Notes under the pieces: generated by a model | What the model saw: only the letters and a program-made list of their open reading frames with translations | Told to the model about the DNA's origin: nothing | Database searches by the model: none | Shown here: one piece after another, positions 11,244-42,915 of the stretch | Numbering within the stretch: position 1 is the first letter of the stretch | Layout of the letters: every line of letters begins with the position of its first letter | Assembly (NCBI GenBank): GCA_956465555.1 | Contig: OY101119.1 | Coordinates: 1,178,001 to 1,242,000 of the forward strand | Direction: 5' to 3' | DNA: 64,000 nt | DNA from: Nitzschia sp. pyKryTriq1 | Lineage: Eukaryota; Bacillariophyta; Bacillariophyceae; Bacillariales; Bacillariaceae | Made by a program: the position numbers and the translations under genes

Positions 11244-13535
11244 CTACTTCTTTCTATCTTGCTGGCACTGGACCGCCCGACGCCACTGATTCCGCTGGAC
11301 AAAGTGTAGGATTTGGAGACAGGATTCTTGTATGGCATTGTCTCCATCCTTGGAATTGTCGACCTCGAGTAAGGGACATGAAGATCTTGGGATCATATCC
11401 TGCACCTTCTCTTGAAGGTACGAGTGTAATCGGCGACACTCGAGCTCAGGATTGCTCAGCGGAAGTCTCGACGCGTTGGCTGGGTCTGACTCGCGTCGTC
11501 GGACACAAGTTTCTGGATCGACCTTCAAAAGGACGAATAAAATGCACGAGTTTTCACCAGCACGTCGAATGGCCTTGTGGACTTGCTCCTGCAGACGACT
11601 ACGAGTACTTTCATCAGGATTGCGAGACTGAACCCACGCCCAATTGCCCACATGCCACGTTTCCACCACTCGACTCTTGTCTTTTGCTTCCTGGTCCCGC
11701 TGAATCTCTGCCTGCAAGACACGACCATCCCAATCGGATCCATAGCCTCCCTCATGACTATTCTCCTGTAGACTGGCGACATCTCTCAAGCTATCCCCCA
11801 GTTCGGGGTGGAATTCCATGTCCAAAAGTTGTGCGAGCTTTGTTCCCACCGTCCGTTTGCCTGCACAGTGGGTACCCAACACTACAATGGTAAGAGGTTG
11901 CAGTTGGACGGATGGGAAGGAAATAGAACGTGGAGGCGAAAAGGGCAATATGCGCCGCGCCACAGTCCACCCCCTGTCGTCGTCACCGCCACCACTAGCA
12001 TTGTCATCACCACCGCAGCGATACGGTCCCCGGCTCCACTCCCAACGTAGTGGTCCTCCCGAACTACTAGGGCCTCCCATGAGTACCTCAATTCTCAAGG
12101 GGATGAACCGAGTAGCCACTAACAGTAGCTCTCGGGACGATGATGACTGTTGCTGCTGCTGTACCGATTCCACGCTCGTCTCATAGTCGGAAGGGCAGCG
12201 GGGACGCTGATTGGACATGAAGGAGGTTTTCTCACCGTTTCCACTATTACTGGTGAGTTGTGCAGCTGCTGTGACATGTGCCGTGAGCATCGATGGTGGA
12301 GCGATCCCCATGGCTTGATCGGCTTGGATTGTACTCTCCACAAGAATACCTTCCGCTCGCCACTGTTGTTCGATTGGATAGTCCCCCAAAAGACACACCA
12401 TAGACGCTATACTATCAGTGTGGTCGTCGTCGTCATTTGTGGTGCTGGCCATGCCTCCAGAGGCCTTACCCCAGGTATAAAACAAAATGCCCTCGTCGTT
12501 GGCAGTATGGATGCCTACTGATCGCAGCATGGGTGGCATATGACCCCCCACCGCGATTTGAATTGCCCATGGAGCATGATGCAAGCGTCGTCCCGTCTCT
12601 GGATGACACAATTGACACTGGGATGACGCTTGCCATTGAAACCATTGCATCGGTGATTGCGAGAAAGCTTTCCAGGGCGTTTGAAAGCGTTCGAGTCTAG
12701 ATCGCACTAGTTGCAACGCCGCCTCCAAGACCTCCGAGGGAGTCCCGTCTGCATTGACAAAGACTTTTTCAGAACCAATACTACGTTGGTGTGCTCTCAA
12801 AATGCGCTGTCCCAGCTGTGCATCGTCCTCCAGGCGTTGATCCCAAGGATTGAAGCGTGATGTAGAGGCGACCCCATCGGTGGCAGCCCGGCTTTGAACA
12901 CGGCTACGGCGAACCTCTTCGTCGACGTGCAACAGCAATTGCACTTGCGGAGGAATCAAATCCTTTGGCCACTTAAAAAGCTCGACTGGCAAGGCATCAA
13001 TCGCTTCGGGGCCTCCTGCAGTATTCTTCCAAGCAATAGAGTACGCGCACGTGGATGAAAACCAGCGATCGACCACAAATATGGCATGGCGATGCGGGTG
13101 CTGCAGTATTTCATATTGCAGCACGTAATTACTGATCATATAAAAGGCTCTCGCGACTGCACCTCCACGTTTGTCCATGGCAGGTCGTACCGCCATCAGG
13201 GAGGCCGAAGGAGTCGCACAGGCGTGTCCTCCCAAGGCCTCGGCCAGCGTGGTGACCAAGGTCGACTTTCCAGAACCATCGAGCCCTTCTACGGCCACCA
13301 CAAAGGGTTGCATTAGCCCATGCTGCTGTTGTACTGTGGACAAGCTGCCTTCGACGGTATTGATCAAGTCAAAAAAGTCGCCCAATCCTGTAGGAGTCTC
13401 CAACACCGATGAGTCCAGTTCGGGCCTCGCTATCCTCAGGATGGTGGCGGCCGTCGCGAAGCTGCGATAATATCCAGAAATGCCATGAGAAACTGCATCA
13501 GCGTACACTTGATTACGGTCTTGGGCGTCGCCCAT
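11244..13535 (-). CDS. CMPK2: CMPK2-like (d)NMP kinase with an extra C-terminal P-loop domain
   Basis: A 763-residue intronless protein, ATG at 13533-13535. Residues about 75-285 form a thymidylate-kinase-fold domain in the style of CMPK2: EGLDGSGKST P-loop (83-92), RAFYMISNY, DRWFSSTCAYSIAW (from 156), then LLLHVDEEVRRSRVQSR. A middle region (about 300-545) is less conserved, with Q/S-rich linkers. From about 548 a second nucleotide-binding domain begins: GTHCAGKRT P-loop (554-562), then FHPELGDSLRD and a helical C-terminus, resembling NadR/AAA_28-type kinases. Animal CMPK2 is about 450 residues and lacks this second domain. The gene is head-to-head with viperin. By analogy the first domain should raise CMP/UMP to the diphosphate, feeding CTP to viperin; the second domain's substrate is unknown. 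Confidence 0.8.
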   Translation of the reverse strand: MGDAQDRNQVYADAVSHGISGYYRSFATAATILRIARPELDSSVLETPTGLGDFFDLINTVEGSLSTVQQQHGLMQPFVVAVEGLDGSGKSTLVTTLAEALGGHACATPSASLMAVRPAMDKRGGAVARAFYMISNYVLQYEILQHPHRHAIFVVDRWFSSTCAYSIAWKNTAGGPEAIDALPVELFKWPKDLIPPQVQLLLHVDEEVRRSRVQSRAATDGVASTSRFNPWDQRLEDDAQLGQRILRAHQRSIGSEKVFVNADGTPSEVLEAALQLVRSRLERFQTPWKAFSQSPMQWFQWQASSQCQLCHPETGRRLHHAPWAIQIAVGGHMPPMLRSVGIHTANDEGILFYTWGKASGGMASTTNDDDDHTDSIASMVCLLGDYPIEQQWRAEGILVESTIQADQAMGIAPPSMLTAHVTAAAQLTSNSGNGEKTSFMSNQRPRCPSDYETSVESVQQQQQSSSSRELLLVATRFIPLRIEVLMGGPSSSGGPLRWEWSRGPYRCGGDDNASGGGDDDRGWTVARRILPFSPPRSISFPSVQLQPLTIVVLGTHCAGKRTVGTKLAQLLDMEFHPELGDSLRDVASLQENSHEGGYGSDWDGRVLQAEIQRDQEAKDKSRVVETWHVGNWAWVQSRNPDESTRSRLQEQVHKAIRRAGENSCILFVLLKVDPETCVRRRESDPANASRLPLSNPELECRRLHSYLQEKVQDMIPRSSCPLLEVDNSKDGDNAIQESCLQILHFVQRNQWRRAVQCQQDRKK

Positions 13536-14051
13536 CGTGGTGGGTGTCGATTGCCGAGTAAATGAGACGAGAACAGTGAGGAGTCAAAAGAGGCAAGAAG
13601 AGAGTGAGAATGAATCAGTCGTCAGTATGAATGAGAAGATTTCTGGTGGAGTGTTGAATGTCGCGTGTCTTGTTGGGTCGTGGGTCAGACTTCAATCCAA
13701 CACCGTCGAACTCGGAGTCGCACTGGTCAAAATTCTGAATGCACGATTTTGATTGGCTCCTGAGGGATCTTTTGCGGTCTTTCCCGCGCCAAACCCCAAT
13801 GATGTTTTTTCCTTCAGTACTTGTACTGTACAATAAGTACAAGTACACACTGTACTGTAGACTATTACCTATACCAGCAATCTATTGGCAGATGATGATG
13901 CCGACGACTGCCGATCGCGGTCATGTACGACGAACCAGCAAAATTGAAAGATGAGCGAGAAACTCTCTCATTTTCCTTTTCAAAGCTTGAATTTGCTTCC
14001 TTCCCCGATTTGCCAATTCACCATTGAGAAATCGATTCAACTACTTGAAAA
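13536..14051. promoter_or_regulatory. Shared divergent promoter of CMPK2-like gene and viperin
   Basis: These 516 bp separate the two start codons and contain no credible gene. A GTAC cluster lies at about 13815-13858 (agtacttgtactgtacaat, aagtacaagtacacactgtac), some 200 bp before the viperin ATG. The arrangement allows co-expression of both genes. No specific stress element was identified. Confidence 0.55.
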
Positions 14052-15272
14052 ATGCGCGTCCCTATGTTCAGGATGATGCTGCTAGGATGGTCGATGTCGA
14101 TGGCACTTTCCTTCCCGCTGTTGTCATCGACGACACCACGACGATCATCCTCGGTATCCTTCTCCAGGCTTCGATTGCATTCGGCCGTCGTCAATACTAC
14201 CTCACCCGCCCCCTTGACAACAACTACTTCTTCCAACGAAGACTGGTTGGCGGAACGTGTCCGCTCCGTCAACTACTTCATTTCTCGCAAGTGCAACTAT
14301 TCTTGCAAATTTTGTTTCCACACTCAAAAGGCAAGTACTCTAGTCTACCGCGGCGGAATACTCTTCTTGAGAAGCAAAGCTTGTACTAACCGATGCTCAC
14401 CTCATTTCTTACATTCGTAGACTACTACTGCATTGTCGTTGGAAGATGCGATGCAAGGACTCGAGCTCCTCTCGGCGGCAGGAACCCAAAAGGTGAATTT
14501 TGCCGGCGGAGAACCCTTCTTGCGACCTCACTTGCTGGGCCGACTCTGTCAAAAGGCGCACGAACTGGGCATGGCAGTCTCTATCATTTCCAATGGATCT
14601 TTGATTACCAAAGAATGGATGCAGCAATATGGATACTACGTGGACGTTCTAGGCGTTTCGGTAGATTCGTTTTTGCCCATTACTAACGCTAAGATTGGTC
14701 GTGGCGGGGATGCCTCTAACCAACACGTTCAACGAGTGTTGCAAGTCCGGCAATGGTGTCATGAGCATAACATTCAATTCAAGGTCAATACTGTCGTGTG
14801 TCAACTCAATTGGGAAGAAGACATGACCGAGCACATGCTAGAATTGGATCCTGTACGATGGAAGGTCTTTCAGGTCTTGATCTTGGAAGGCGAAAATGCC
14901 GGGAATGGAGATTTGCGGGATGGTCGATCCTTGACGATTGAATGCGATCAATACCAAGCCTTTGTCGAACGTCATCGAGCTCACTTTCCCAAGGTGCTCA
15001 TTCCTGAATCCAACGATGTCATGCAAAACTCCTACTTGTTGTTGGACGAGGATTTGCGGTTCTTGGATTGTTCCAAAGGCGGAAAAGTCCCCAGCGAATC
15101 CATCCTCGATGTCGGGGTACCCGTTGCCTTGGCACAAGCGGGTTTCGACTATGACATGTTCCAGCAGCGAGGTGGCATTTTTGAATGGACTCGCGATCGT
15201 GGCAATGGCGACGCTACTACGATTAGTCACCAGAACAACCAAGATGATCGGGGTCATCTTTCGCACCCATGA
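14052..15272 (+). CDS. RSAD2: Viperin (radical SAM ddhCTP synthase)
   Basis: Two exons, 14052-14330 and 14421-15272, give 376 residues. The intron starts with GC (AAAG|GCAAGT) and ends cgtAG; the join FHTQK-TTTALSLEDA aligns without a gap to animal viperin. Viperin converts CTP to the chain terminator ddhCTP with SAM and a 4Fe-4S cluster. Seen here: CNYSCKFC cluster motif (Cys 81, 85, 88), NFAGGEPFL (119-127; animal NFSGGEPFL), ISNGSLI, DPVRWKVFQVL, GENAG, VPESND-like IPESND, SYLLLDEDLRFLDC and SILDVGV. The N-terminus has a hydrophobic stretch (MMLLGWSMSMALSFPL) that looks like a signal peptide with a Phe after it, so ER or plastid targeting is possible. The C-terminus extends past GGIFEW with a polar tail and lacks the final Trp of the animal protein. 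Confidence 0.92.
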
Positions 15273-18596: not shown

Positions 18597-19680
18597 GATG
18601 GTGTAATGGTTTGGAAAAATATGCGTCGGCTGAGATGGTCCTTGCTTGGAACAACCAAATCGAATTTATGACGATGGCAAAATGTTGACGCTTGACGCTT
18701 TTGTTGTCTCGATCGAGATGATGCGGAGAAAGATGGCGGTTCGATGGAACGTTCTCGAAATGCCAGACTGAAACAGCGCGGAATAATTCCTTTTTGTTCG
18801 CTGGCTTCACTCTGCGTGGCAGGCGAAGATGATATTCCGCCAGCGCGTGCATTCTACGCAAAAATCTTACTACCAGCAGGTATCAGCCAAACCACGGTGG
18901 TTGGATGCGTCAACCGAGAGCAAGAATGCCGCCATGCATACAGCAGTACAAGTACGAGTACAGTACCAGGTACGAGCGAACACCAGAGAACCAGCATGTC
19001 ACACCTGGTTCCGGTACAGTACGGTACCGGTAGGGAGCATCATCGCGTAAGAAAAACCCAAACCCAAAAGTGTGTTCGAGTTATTCGACTAAAAGTATGG
19101 ACACGAGGACCATTATTGAGAACTTCAACAATCTGAGCATATGATTGGTTTTGGAAAGTTCTGCGAATATCAGATTTCAAGGCTTCTGGTTTCTGTAGTA
19201 GGACTTCCAGGTACGAAACAACGTAGAGACTCCCAACAGATTATCATTAACTTTATATCCCTGGAGATGCAATAGATACTCCGGGAACGGTACCAGACAT
19301 ACTTCGGAGAATTTATCAGCTGCGTTACCGTCCTGGTCGTGATTCCATCGAAACGTGACTCAATCCCGAATTTCCAAAAATGCTCCGACTCAGACGAATG
19401 GAATCACCATCTCAATCGGCAGGGATTTCGAAAGACTTCTTCCACGTGTTCAGTTTCTAGCCTCGGGACAAGGTGCCGACGAACGATGATGCTGATGCTG
19501 TTGTTGAGGTTGATCTCTCAAACTTCTTCTACCTTTCACGGGACGACTTCGTCATCATCACACAATCCAAGAGAGCAGAGGGCATTCAATCACAAACCTG
19601 ATCTCATTCTTTTGATCGACTTTCAAGCAACTCCAGCCTCCTTTCACTTTCGAAAACTTTGCTTCGCCCTAAAATCTACA
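18597..19680. other. Spacer with strong GTAC island
   Basis: No gene seen. The island at about 18950-19035 holds many GTAC words (agtacaagtacgagtacag, cggtacagtacggtaccgg) about 350 bp upstream of the gene on the minus strand. The open frame before ClpS at 19339 has no early ATG and reads into the real start at 19681. Confidence 0.5.
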
Positions 19681-20172
19681 ATGTTTTCACGCGTCGTTAA
19701 TATGTTGCTTCTTTTTGTGACTTGGCTTTGCCTTTCATCGGCTTTCACGGTGTTACAGCCTCCCCGGGTGGTGTCCTCGGCCCCTGTCTCTTCGACAAGC
19801 CTCTACATGTCCGATAAAGAGCGCTCTAAATCTACCAAAAAGGGAGTCACCACAATTATCAAAGAGCGAACCGAGAGCAAAGCCGAGGAACAAAAGAACA
19901 AAGAAGAGATGTGGCGAGTGGTTCTCCACAACGACGAAGTGCACACTTTCAACTATGTTATCCGAAGTCTATGCAAAGTTATCGGAACATTGGATCGTAA
20001 GGCTTCCTTTGAAATATGTGTGCAGACACATGGGAATGGGAAGGCTACAGTCACCAAAACTTGGAAAAAGCAAGCTGAACAGTTTTGCTTGGGTCTACAA
20101 CGTCAGGGCCTTACAGTGAGCATTTCCCCCGATGAAGACTTCGATGGTGGCCATTCAGGCGGTGGTTTGTAA
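19681..20172 (+). CDS. clpS: ClpS adaptor, predicted plastid-targeted
   Basis: A 164-residue... 163-residue protein from the ATG at 19681. Residues 1-20 form a signal peptide (MLLLFVTWLCLSSAF), with Phe at the predicted cleavage site (SSAF|TVLQ), typical for diatom plastid proteins. The ClpS domain follows from about residue 75: WRVVLHNDEVHTFNYVIRSL, then a helix and HGNGKATV, then a final helix and strand GLTVSISPDED. ClpS binds N-degron substrates at the Asn-Asp and His positions seen here and passes them to the ClpC/ClpP protease in the stroma. A Lys/Glu-rich linker lies before the domain. An upstream in-frame extension lacks a good start. The gene is convergent with the ABC1 kinase, 38 bp apart. 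Confidence 0.88.
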   Translation: MFSRVVNMLLLFVTWLCLSSAFTVLQPPRVVSSAPVSSTSLYMSDKERSKSTKKGVTTIIKERTESKAEEQKNKEEMWRVVLHNDEVHTFNYVIRSLCKVIGTLDRKASFEICVQTHGNGKATVTKTWKKQAEQFCLGLQRQGLTVSISPDEDFDGGHSGGGL

Positions 20173-20210: not shown

Positions 20211-21812
20211 CTAGACATCAATTACTACTTCAACCTCTGCGCTCCCGTTGATCTGTTTCATGTCAGTTCCAGTACCCAGTCCACTTACTCGGGAATCGCT
20301 CATAACATCCAAACCGGGTGCGAGGATCTTCAAATAGCGATCAAAGTATAAGCTTTGCTTCACTAGAAGTCCGAATTCACGAGGCAACCTCAGTCCATTG
20401 TCCTCCGTGACATCGACGATCTCCAGAAGAAGATTCGTAATCTCGTTTTCATCAAAATTCAAACTTCCGGCAACGGTGCCGTCTGACATCTCCGCAACCA
20501 TAATGTTGGGTTGCACTGTTGCCATGCGATTCATAACAGCTTCGATATCGTTGGCGAACTTGTCAATATCGACCGTCTCATCTGTCGCCCCCATATTGCA
20601 AAGAGCAACTGCCATGCCACGGTAATCTGCTAGGGTTAGAGAGGTACTCAGCTCGTTGACAGCTTGAAAGGTCTTGTCGGAGACTCGGCCAACAATACCA
20701 AAGTCAATGAAGCCTACACGACCATCATCAAGGAGCAATAGGTTCCCGGCATGCACGTCGGCGTGAAACCAAGGCATTTTCATCACAGACATCGTCCAAA
20801 TATTTAGAGCCGTGATGATTGCCTGCTGACCCATCTCTGGGTTGTTGGTGGCTTTTGCGATGCTGACATCATCCAGCATGCTGATTCCATAAAGCCTCTC
20901 CATTGTGAATACTTTCTTCGTTGTGAATTCTCTAAACACTTTTGGTGCAGTCGCCTCGTTCAGGAGTTGGTTTTCGGCCAAGAAACGTCGGAATTCCTCA
21001 GTGTTCCTCGCTTCCTTTTCAAAGTCCAACTCTTCCAACATGGAAGATCGAATGTCGCCAGCAATACCAGACAATGACGTACGTTCCCAGTCTGGTTGCA
21101 AGAATTCCAAAACTCGGGAAGCGACGTAGATGAATCCTAGATCAGCTTTCAATGAAGAATCGATGCCTGGCTTTTGAACTTTGATGACAACGTCCTCGCC
21201 AGTCTTTAGTGTCGCGGCATGACATTGCGCAATACTTGCAGAGGCCAGGGGTGTGGGGTCAACATAGGAGAAGGATTTTGAGATGGGTCCGAGCTCTTGT
21301 TCAATAACCCGCTTGATGATAGACCATTCCACCGGATCTGTTTTGTCCAGACACTTTTGAAATTCCAAAACATATTCTTTGGGGAAGAGAGTTGGGCTGG
21401 ATGCAATGAATTGACCCAGCTTGACATATGTGGCTCCAAGCTTTTCAAACAGCGTGCGAAGCACTTTGGGGACGGAAAACTCCGAGGGGGTTCGACCCGG
21501 GAGGGGCAAAAATTCTCGAAAGGTCGCACGGAAAGCGAGAAATGCTTGTAAAGACCTCGCCGGTCCGGCCCGAGGACCGGCGTCAACAGCCGCCTGGATT
21601 ATATCTTGAATCAAGCTAGCCGCTTCTTCTTGGGTGCGGTCTTGCACTGTCTTCTTTGGTCGACGGTTTCTGGATGCACCCGCCCCTGGGGTGGACATGT
21701 ACGAGGGGGCGGCATTGCTCCTCACGGGATTCTTTGGGGATGCTGGCGTGAATGACGACACGCATTGACAGAGAAATACCAAGGCCACAGCTACAATCGA
21801 AACTCTGCACAT
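20211..21812 (-). CDS. ABC1/UbiB-family atypical kinase, predicted plastid-targeted
   Basis: A 533-residue protein; ATG at 21810-21812 starts a signal peptide (CRVSIVAVALVFLCQCVSS) ending at SSFTPASP, a Phe-type plastid motif. The ABC1 kinase-like domain shows its diagnostic parts: KLGQFIAS (KxGQ), PLASASIAQCHAA (alanine-rich loop), VIKVQKPG (lysine), EELDFEKEA, FHADVHAGNLLLL and GFIDFGIVG (metal-binding DFG). ABC1K proteins control quinone and isoprenoid metabolism and plastoglobule function in plants. This copy resembles the plastid ABC1K group rather than mitochondrial COQ8 by its targeting; the exact clade is not resolved. Intronless. Confidence 0.88.
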   Translation of the reverse strand: MCRVSIVAVALVFLCQCVSSFTPASPKNPVRSNAAPSYMSTPGAGASRNRRPKKTVQDRTQEEAASLIQDIIQAAVDAGPRAGPARSLQAFLAFRATFREFLPLPGRTPSEFSVPKVLRTLFEKLGATYVKLGQFIASSPTLFPKEYVLEFQKCLDKTDPVEWSIIKRVIEQELGPISKSFSYVDPTPLASASIAQCHAATLKTGEDVVIKVQKPGIDSSLKADLGFIYVASRVLEFLQPDWERTSLSGIAGDIRSSMLEELDFEKEARNTEEFRRFLAENQLLNEATAPKVFREFTTKKVFTMERLYGISMLDDVSIAKATNNPEMGQQAIITALNIWTMSVMKMPWFHADVHAGNLLLLDDGRVGFIDFGIVGRVSDKTFQAVNELSTSLTLADYRGMAVALCNMGATDETVDIDKFANDIEAVMNRMATVQPNIMVAEMSDGTVAGSLNFDENEITNLLLEIVDVTEDNGLRLPREFGLLVKQSLYFDRYLKILAPGLDVMSDSRVSGLGTGTDMKQINGSAEVEVVIDV

Positions 21813-22605
21813 TTCAAACTTGTTGATGCTTTCTTTTCGGGTATCACCAATGCACCTCCCTTTTAAACAATAGAATTGTTTTTCGGCCAAAACGTTTGTC
21901 TGTTGTCGTTCGAAGAAAATGGACCCAATATCTACAGGAACAGCTCAGTCGCGTGTGTGGGGTGCATCCATAGTCGAGTCGGCATCAGATTTTCGTCGCT
22001 CATCGTCGTGTTGTTGCGCTTTTTGCGCGCGGTACAAGTACAGTATCATACCAGTACCAGGTACCGGTACACGGCAGACCAAGTTGAAGAAAGGTCGGCA
22101 CGTGAGAAAAGTACCATGAGAGTCAGTCAGTCCGTCCGTCTGTACAAAGTAACCACGTGGAAGGCGCAAGGTACTGTACTGTACGCATGATGCATGACAC
22201 TCGAAAGATCGCACCGTCCTCGTAACGATAGTTTCTGGATGACAAAAGTCTTTGGTACTACTAGAGCTAGTTCTCGAAAGTAAGTGTGGATAATGGATGG
22301 AATGAAGCTGTCTAGTCATATTGCTACGGAGCAGAGAAGATCTATTCAATCGTACCTTATAAGCGTATACGTATGCCTTGAAAGCATTCGACAAGTCAAG
22401 GCAATCCATCGATCGACAGTGAAAGTGAAACCCAACTTCTTTCTGAGTTTAGCATTGCCTTGCATTGAAAGGTGGAGCAACCACCACTCGATACATCGAC
22501 TAGGTTGCCAACCAGACTTGGTTCACTTCTACATACTGGTAATCTATTGGTGCTGGTCAATCCAGATTCGCGATCGATATTGTGCCTCCGACTGTCTTCC
22601 AACTT
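21813..22605. other. Spacer with GTAC island
   Basis: Upstream of the ABC1 kinase and downstream of eIF4E. A GTAC cluster at about 22030-22075 (ggtacaagtacagtatc, agtaccaggtaccggtac) lies some 220 bp before the kinase ATG. No gene seen. Confidence 0.5.
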
Positions 22606-41739: not shown

Positions 41740-42915
41740 TTACCATCCGTTCATGCTCTTTCGGTGACGCTTGAAATCCGGCTCGTTCAGCGGTTTGGTC
41801 AGTATGTCTGCCGGTTGGTCGTAGGTACCAATAGGATGGATTGAGATCCAACCCTTCGTGACGTAGCTTCTAAAGTGGAAGAGTTTGTTGTTGAGGAATT
41901 TGGTTCGGGGGCGGAACTTGTGGTATCGTGCGATCTCGATAGCCCCGGAATTATCCTCAAACACCTTGCAGTGCACTTCGGTACACGAAGTGTTTATTTC
42001 GAAACCTCGCTTCTTCATTTCCCGTAATAAGCTAATAATTGGAATGGCTTCTCGGAGCGCATATGATAGTCCCGTAATTTCGCTTTCGGTCGATGAGAGT
42101 GCGATCTCTTGTTGTAGTTGTGACTTGTACGCGATTGGCATTCCTGCGTAGCATATGTAGTACCCGTGACGTGACCGCGCGGTTGAACGGTCTATGCCTG
42201 CAAGTTCAGGATCCCAGTTTCCCGCAAAGTCCGCGTCGACGTAGACTTCCAGTGATTTCGTTGCGTCGGGTCTGAGAATTGTGCCCTCACCTTTCGTTGC
42301 CTTTAAGTAGCGTCCAATCCACTTAACAGCCTTTGCGTGCTCCATTTTTGGCTCTTGCGCAAAGCGTGCGCATTGATGTGTCGCGTAGGCTATCTCACTT
42401 CGCGAGCCTGCGACGAGATAATGTAACTTTCCGATGACCGATCGGTAGTTGAAATGGTTGTCGAAAGGTCTCGAATCGGGATGTCGGGATAGCAGCTTGC
42501 TCGATGCCATCGGAGTTTCCTTCGTTGCGACATTGTCGTCGTTGAGTCTGAGGTCGTCCAGTACTTGTTGAATTAAACGTGGCTGCGATAATTTGATGGT
42601 TCCGTCGTCGCGGCGATCGATGTTCACACCGAGAAAATCCGATAGCGTTCCTTCAATAGTAATATCGAGTACTCTCTTCATTTCTTCAACGGTCTCCATA
42701 ATCTCATTTTTGTTCGGTCCGGCAAGAATGCTGTCGTCGGTGTACAAGACGTACATCATTTCGCCCTTGTAGAAAATGCAGTCGTCAAATTTGGATTGTG
42801 TGAATCCGAGATCGGTGAGCTTCTCTTTCAAATAGAGGTACCATGTTCGTCCGGCGTCTTTTCCACCGTAGAGGTTCTTGTGCACTTGGAGAACGTACTC
42901 CTCTGGGTTCTCCAC
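41740..42915 (-). CDS. Pol C-terminal region (RT and RNase H) of Copia fossil 2
   Basis: About 390 residues of Copia Pol: LYGGKDAGRTWYLYL, YVLYTDDSILAG (the YxDD-type RT site), FLGVNIDRR, NYRSVIGKLHYLVAGSR, YVDADFAGNWD and EDNSGAIEIA of the RNase H, then PADILTKPL near the end. Fragment of a fossil, not a host gene. Confidence 0.9.
   Translation of the reverse strand: MENPEEYVLQVHKNLYGGKDAGRTWYLYLKEKLTDLGFTQSKFDDCIFYKGEMMYVLYTDDSILAGPNKNEIMETVEEMKRVLDITIEGTLSDFLGVNIDRRDDGTIKLSQPRLIQQVLDDLRLNDDNVATKETPMASSKLLSRHPDSRPFDNHFNYRSVIGKLHYLVAGSRSEIAYATHQCARFAQEPKMEHAKAVKWIGRYLKATKGEGTILRPDATKSLEVYVDADFAGNWDPELAGIDRSTARSRHGYYICYAGMPIAYKSQLQQEIALSSTESEITGLSYALREAIPIISLLREMKKRGFEINTSCTEVHCKVFEDNSGAIEIARYHKFRPRTKFLNNKLFHFRSYVTKGWISIHPIGTYDQPADILTKPLNEPDFKRHRKSMNGW

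Follow-up and report, generated by a model that had tools for sequence, protein, structure and literature searches.

A divergent viperin-kinase gene pair in a diatom-like alga, with a viperin probably addressed to the plastid

Viperin genes next to nucleotide kinase genes have been described in bacteria and in mammals. According to a 2026 preprint (PMC12889620), human RSAD2, which encodes viperin, and CMPK2 are transcribed in opposite directions from a promoter/enhancer region that they share, and in some lower organisms the two are fused. The human proteins are found in separate places, RSAD2 at the endoplasmic reticulum (ER) and CMPK2 in the mitochondrion (PMC12889620). Viperins are known from all major eukaryotic supergroups, and their presence in the last common ancestor has been inferred (PMC10732462). 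Viperin is an immune enzyme common to bacteria, algae and people. How protists defend themselves against viruses has been little studied (PMC12911909). Here, we analyse a viperin gene and a kinase gene that lie head to head in a 64,000-nucleotide stretch of contig OY101119.1, called the window below; all coordinates refer to it unless another record is named. On balance, we favour the reading that the two genes form a divergently transcribed module making ddhCTP in a diatom-like alga, with the viperin probably bound for the plastid. Because viperin/kinase neighbours are documented in bacteria and mammals, the pairing itself is not new; the organisation of both proteins makes this one a variant.

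The first-pass annotation of the window had placed the two genes on opposite strands with their start codons 516 bp apart, and both sets of coordinates proved exact (Table 1). It had not mentioned the 90-bp intron that interrupts the viperin reading frame. In the genome searched (40.65 Mb, 20 contigs), viperin and the kinase are each present in one copy, judged on the best candidates scored; a third, weak match in the viperin search is a different radical-SAM protein with 28% identity. The family PF02223 has two matches in the genome, the paired kinase and a match on a different contig, which resembles an ordinary dTMP kinase. Assuming about 10^4 genes, we estimate the chance that the single viperin would adjoin either of these two TMPK-family genes at a few in 10^4. 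The light-harvesting family PF00504 gave 72 matches in the genome, roughly half of the 30 loci inspected carry ASAFAP-type presequences (judged by eye), and one light-harvesting protein tested against PDB had FCP proteins as its best matches. For these reasons we regard the host as a diatom or a close relative.

The identification of viperin holds, and by its sequence the gene at 14052-15272 encodes a viperin of the eukaryotic type. The intron was preferred over the other frame-keeping choices because the junction left after its removal, FCFHTQK/TTTALSLEDA, aligns without a gap to mouse viperin. The spliced protein obtains 270 bits against NCBIfam NF038283, above the cut-off of 180. TIGR04278 is the best-scoring model with 341 bits, yet this is below its strict curated cut-off of 450; the PADLOC pVip models also match. 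The match to mouse viperin (5vsl) has an E-value of 9e-89, with 141 of 276 aligned residues identical (51%). C81, C85 and C88 align with mouse C84, C88 and C91, and mouse K220, N222, R245, K247 and Y302, positions which we take to have roles in nucleotide binding and catalysis, are identical residues in the diatom protein. The annotation had proposed a tree as a check on the protein. In our tree of 13 sequences, which has a very long outgroup branch, the diatom viperin falls with mouse, 7n7h and 6b4c (support 100/99), and the sampled viperins of cyanobacteria, archaea and proteobacteria lie outside this group. This placement fits the published pan-eukaryotic distribution (PMC10732462).

The N-terminus of the viperin reads MRVPMFRMMLLGWSMSMALSFPLLSSTTPRRSSSVSFSRLRLHS. 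Using a provisional von Heijne matrix, for which the usual cut-off is 3.5, the top cleavage site is ALS^FPL(L) with a score of 4.69; a stricter Kyte-Doolittle rule does not accept it. According to PMC12136025, proteins imported into diatom plastids carry a signal peptide and then a transit peptide with F, W, Y or L at +1, and these transit peptides are uncharged at +1 to +3 and have almost no acidic residue from +1 to +15. The sequence after the predicted cut, FPLLSSTTPRRSSSV, has F at +1, no charge at +1 to +3 and no acid from +1 to +15, and the stretch that follows the predicted signal peptide is acid-free and rich in S, T and R. A predicted bipartite presequence with F at +1 is what the viperin has in common with plastid-targeted diatom proteins such as the FCPs and an ABC1 kinase. 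It differs from the FCPs in having ALS^FPL instead of the ASA^FAP type, and its signal-peptide score is below that of 7 of the 8 FCPs that pass (range 3.98-9.69).

To score other proteins in the same way we used a rule set, the second of two, that joins this matrix to the published import rules (PMC12136025). Starting from the first Met, 8 of 21 FCP open reading frames (ORFs) pass. Among 59 non-FCP ORFs with 250 or more amino acids a single one passes, the ABC1 kinase, which has an evident plastid presequence. The non-FCP set consists of mechanical ORFs from the window and from fetched stretches of the same genome, with the paired kinase included. The paired kinase fails the plastid rules. It has acidic residues at its N-terminus and no signal-peptide site (best score -0.47); it is without a targeting sequence by the rules used and is predicted to be cytosolic. 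The viperin, in turn, is probably sent to the plastid, and a plastid-addressed viperin would be new.

The other end of the protein is compatible with this address. The viperin ends in ...GHLSHP, without the tripeptide [LIM][DES][WF]. This C-terminal motif occurs in many clients of the cytosolic iron-sulfur assembly (CIA) machinery and is absent from plastid and bacterial orthologues (PMC10623007). Its absence is no proof of a plastid location, so we count it as supportive and not as decisive. Substrate could be at hand there as well: pyrimidines arise in the cytosol, and for this reason the plastids of diatoms take up CTP and further nucleotides by way of NTT exchangers; diatom NTT2 swaps (d)NTPs, CTP among them, for ATP (PMC6995639). 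The NTT family PF03219 has 8 exon-level matches at about 6 places in the genome, two of them strong.

Several observations weigh against the favoured reading. The hydrophobic core of the viperin N-terminus is modest, and the viperin fails the first, stricter rule set (Kyte-Doolittle threshold of 1.6), under which 9 of 18 FCP-like ORFs pass, as do 5 of 58 other ORFs. With the first Met as start, the second rule set catches just those 8 of the 21 FCP ORFs, and when any early Met is allowed 10 of 19 FCP segments pass together with 4 of 61 other ORFs. As 1614 of 20000 shuffles of viperin residues 2-60 also pass, composition accounts for part of the presequence score. If a plastid viperin were separated from a cytosolic kinase, substrate would be handed over less directly; human RSAD2 and CMPK2 are separated too. 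Nor does the reading account for the middle and C-terminal parts of the kinase sequence, described below. Finally, CMPK2 knockdown did not lower ddhCTP in human cells (PMC12889620).

Part of this evidence would suit a vertebrate-like module outside the plastid, in which the N-terminus is a membrane anchor, the viperin resides in the cytosol or on the ER surface that faces it, and viral RNA polymerases in this compartment are halted by ddhCTP. A hydrophobic stretch that is modest and fails the Kyte-Doolittle rule could serve as such an anchor, and diatom RNA viruses multiply in the cytoplasm. Mammalian viperin is ER-associated too (PMC12889620). Against this reading stand the missing CIA tripeptide and an N-terminus that fits a cleavable signal peptide and continues, from F at +1, as a stretch rich in S, T and R and free of acid; we consider it somewhat unlikely. 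Residues 1-45, with no acid and six Arg, might also be read as a mitochondrial presequence, a view in line with the lack of acidic residues throughout residues 1-61 and with the mitochondrial location of human CMPK2 (PMC12889620). The uncharged run at residues 8-29 and the F at +1 of the cut site fit a bipartite plastid signal better, and mitochondrial targeting seems hardly probable.

The partner gene had been annotated as a CMPK2-like kinase, a description that suits its first domain, with a provisional human sequence as the reference, and does not extend to the domain layout of vertebrate CMPK2. This first domain has a TMPK fold with a P-loop and obtains 28.7 bits against PF02223 (cut-off 27). 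The best PADLOC model for the kinase is PDC-M51B, with 76.3 bits and an E-value of 5.9e-22; VakA, the viperin-associated kinase, comes below it (47.7 bits, 6e-13). As a control, the dTMP kinase of the same genome, a fragment of 158 amino acids, reaches 38.5 bits with PDC-M51B, about half the score of the paired kinase, and 23.2 bits with VakA. Using phmmer, the kinase domain scores 79.7 bits against a provisional human CMPK2 sequence, compared with 28.2 bits for the Acinetobacter M51B kinase and 17.6-20.4 bits for three VakA-type kinases. The alignment to this CMPK2 sequence spans the whole kinase domain, with RAFY...NY, VDR(Y/W)..ST..Y.IA and WP.DL..P aligned. With blastp the lead is smaller: 79.7 for the CMPK2 reference, 57.0 for the Acinetobacter M51B, 34.7-37.0 for the VakA type and 23.9 for the genome's own dTMP kinase fragment. 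The comparison panel is small, and no CMPK2 chain was found in PDB for checking the reference. As that sequence is provisional, we treat the CMPK2 affinity as a strong lead and not as a clean test; it suggests that the first kinase domain is nearer to CMPK2 than to the bacterial viperin-associated kinases or to the host's own dTMP kinase.

With an identity that depends on a PF02223 score of 28.7 bits against a cut-off of 27 and on a provisional CMPK2 sequence, the kinase might be an unrelated nucleotide kinase that neighbours the viperin by coincidence. We find this very improbable, given that PADLOC models for viperin-associated kinases match it, that PDC-M51B gives it 76.5 bits, about twice the 38.5 bits of the genome's dTMP kinase fragment, and that chance adjacency is estimated to be so rare.

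Vertebrate CMPK2 consists of an N-terminal domain followed by the kinase domain at the C-terminus. This layout is not matched in the diatom protein, where the kinase domain occupies residues 78-290 of 763 and about 460 residues come after it, comprising a middle region and a second P-loop domain. AAA_18 matches the full kinase with 41 bits over two stretches, and the second P-loop domain alone with 28.7 bits, just below the cut-off of 29.4. A plasmid search with the C-terminal 464 residues gave no homologue at an E-value of 0.01, and the C-terminal domain alone obtained one match in PDB, at an E-value of 0.45. The structure predicted from the single sequence of residues 300-763 has a mean pLDDT of 34.9, too low to be of use.

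Compared with the vertebrate pair, the locus has a viperin with a conserved radical-SAM core and a CMPK2-type kinase (human reference provisional) that diverge from one intergenic region. The first-pass annotation had pointed out that the vertebrate genes are neighbours, and it was right: in mammals they diverge from a common promoter/enhancer region (PMC12889620). The diatom viperin differs from vertebrate RSAD2 by its plastid-type presequence and the lack of the C-terminal CIA tripeptide, and the kinase differs from vertebrate CMPK2 by a short N-terminus, by having no targeting sequence under the rules used, and by the additional residues with the second P-loop.

The annotation had also stated that many prokaryotic viperins sit beside nucleotide kinases. 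Among plasmids, 13 viperin loci cover at least 80% of the query, and six of them were opened. For three of these six a VakA-type kinase is the next gene upstream, in agreement with the statement; the other three have no annotated kinase, and their hypothetical neighbours were left unscored. Like the prokaryotic viperins (pVips) with VakA, the diatom locus has a TMPK-like kinase gene adjoining viperin, and both the VakA and the pVip models of PADLOC match. However, the genes are same-strand neighbours in the three plasmid loci and divergent in the diatom, the diatom viperin groups with eukaryotic sequences instead, and the kinase seems nearer to the provisional CMPK2 reference than to VakA.

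A further relative is PDC-M51A/B, a candidate phage-defence pair in PADLOC, to which the locus is linked by PDC-M51B as the best PADLOC model for the diatom kinase. On the Acinetobacter sp. WCHA55 plasmid NZ_CP032284, an M51B-type kinase gene lies immediately upstream of a radical-SAM gene whose product has a weak pVip match (43 bits) and no PDC-M51A among the matches listed. The plasmid locus (5013-6517) contains the PDC-M51B/VakA-like kinase gene and the radical-SAM gene, with a 4Fe-4S gene just before them, and from their sequences the two could be a viperin-like candidate defence pair. In the archaeon Methanolobus bombayensis, two viperin-model matches lie close together at C2:303436-305565, one with 253 bits and one with 154 bits, which is below the cut-off; a further match of 270 bits is found at C2:43908-44639.

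In the favoured reading, the viperin would enter the ER by its signal peptide and move on to the plastid, as its presequence suggests, and, by analogy with its family, would convert CTP to ddhCTP, a chain terminator of RNA synthesis. The plastid could offer it iron-sulfur assembly, S-adenosylmethionine, ferredoxin electrons and NTT-imported CTP, and the ddhCTP would act in the plastid or exit through the same NTT exchangers. The kinase, predicted to be cytosolic, would raise the supply of CDP and CTP, again judging from its family, and its second P-loop domain perhaps catalyses another phosphorylation step. The most likely purpose of such a module would be antiviral. A plastid viperin might instead have a non-viral role, its ddhCTP or a related product tuning plastid transcription or metabolism, as could be read from the presequence and from the presence of one viperin copy in a photosynthetic genome. 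Viperins studied elsewhere are immune enzymes (PMC10732462, PMC11249213) and the paired kinase is their usual immune partner, which makes this alternative distinctly unlikely. The full proposal, in which a plastid viperin makes an antiviral chain terminator with ferredoxin electrons, plastid iron-sulfur assembly and NTT-imported CTP while the divergent cytosolic two-P-loop kinase feeds the pyrimidine pool, is tentative, and we place it a little short of probable.

If the proposal is true, photosynthetic electrons would go into making ddhCTP, which would link immunity with photosynthesis, and a plastid-addressed viperin would be an antiviral nucleotide factory in the chloroplast, consistent with the missing CIA signal. 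With its second P-loop domain, the paired kinase would extend the known module by one step. The earlier annotation mentions neither the intron nor the plastid-type presequence, the lack of the CIA tripeptide or the second P-loop domain; apart from the intron, these features matter for where the module works and how. Among the matches listed in our literature searches, none deals with viperin from a diatom or in a plastid, and nothing on this point was found in PMC11291487, PMC7168155 or PMC11185175. Shomar et al. 2024 is said to be the main paper on viperins and linked nucleotide kinases in eukaryotes, and it may already list diatoms. A EukProt survey found viperin in 158 species and may include diatoms as well (PMC10732462).

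Table 1. Features of the viperin-kinase locus, in coordinates of the window.
Feature	Coordinates	Strand	Remarks
Kinase gene	11244..13535	-	Single ORF, 763 codons without a stop among them; 763 amino acids
Second P-loop nucleotide-kinase-like domain (putative), residues 550-690	11466..11888	-	Walker A GTHCAGKRT
Kinase middle region, residues 300-544	11904..12638	-	No Pfam match listed at E up to 10
CMPK2/TMPK-like kinase domain, about residues 78-290	12666..13304	-	PF02223, PADLOC models
Intergenic region, 516 bp	13536..14051		Presumed bidirectional promoter
Perfect 11-bp inverted repeat with 8-bp spacer	13817..13846		GTACTTGTACT / AGTACAAGTAC; between the two start codons
Viperin gene	14052-15272	+	Two exons, 376 amino acids after splicing
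Viperin exon 1, residues 1-93	14052..14330	+	Presequence, linker, CxxxCxxC radical-SAM motif
Predicted signal peptide, residues 1-20	14052..14111	+	Cut after ALS; von Heijne score 4.69, top site of scan
Predicted plastid transit peptide and linker, residues 21-61	14112..14234	+	F at +1, no acidic residue
Viperin intron, 90 bp	14331..14420	+	GC-AG, donor AG/GCAAGT; picked among 14 frame-keeping options
Viperin exon 2, residues 94-376 and stop	14421..15272	+	C-terminus ...GHLSHP

The origin of the two genes was searched in several collections. A cyanobacterial (plastid) transfer of viperin was rejected, because the identity to mouse viperin is 51% compared with 39.7% for the best cyanobacterial plasmid viperin, and the tree of 13 sequences places the protein with eukaryotes. 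No source was found for a viral or phage origin of either gene: single-protein scans of viral contigs gave no relative of the viperin or the kinase, the viperin alignment search in the same contigs gave six weak partial loci with 23-31% identity, and the phage search gave one partial radical-SAM match and one thymidylate kinase. Nor was a prokaryotic donor of the kinase domain found in two phyla and the plasmids. One of 392 genomes from the phylum of Methanolobus bombayensis matched at an E-value of 1e-5, at a locus that by eye adjoins an aminoacyl-tRNA synthetase and looks like an ordinary dTMP kinase. In the phylum of a second genome (G003) none of 395 genomes matched at 1e-5, a zero that is uninformative without a positive control. 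The plasmids gave two records at an E-value of 0.01. A scan of the genome contigs collection with the viperin alignment gave three loci.

Between the two start codons, the inverted repeat at 13817-13846 is a possible shared regulatory site of viperin and kinase, judging from its sequence and position; an exact-match search found the full element once genome-wide. Elsewhere in the window, the ABC1 atypical kinase is encoded at 20211-21890 (-), with 185 bits against PF03109 and the clear diatom plastid presequence VSS^FTPASP. An ORF at 19339-20172 (+) resembles by eye the Clp adaptor ClpS and has a plastid-type stretch, LSSAFTVLQPP, near its likely start. By eye, the ORF at 41740-42915 (-) is a fragment of a copia-type reverse transcriptase/RNase H.

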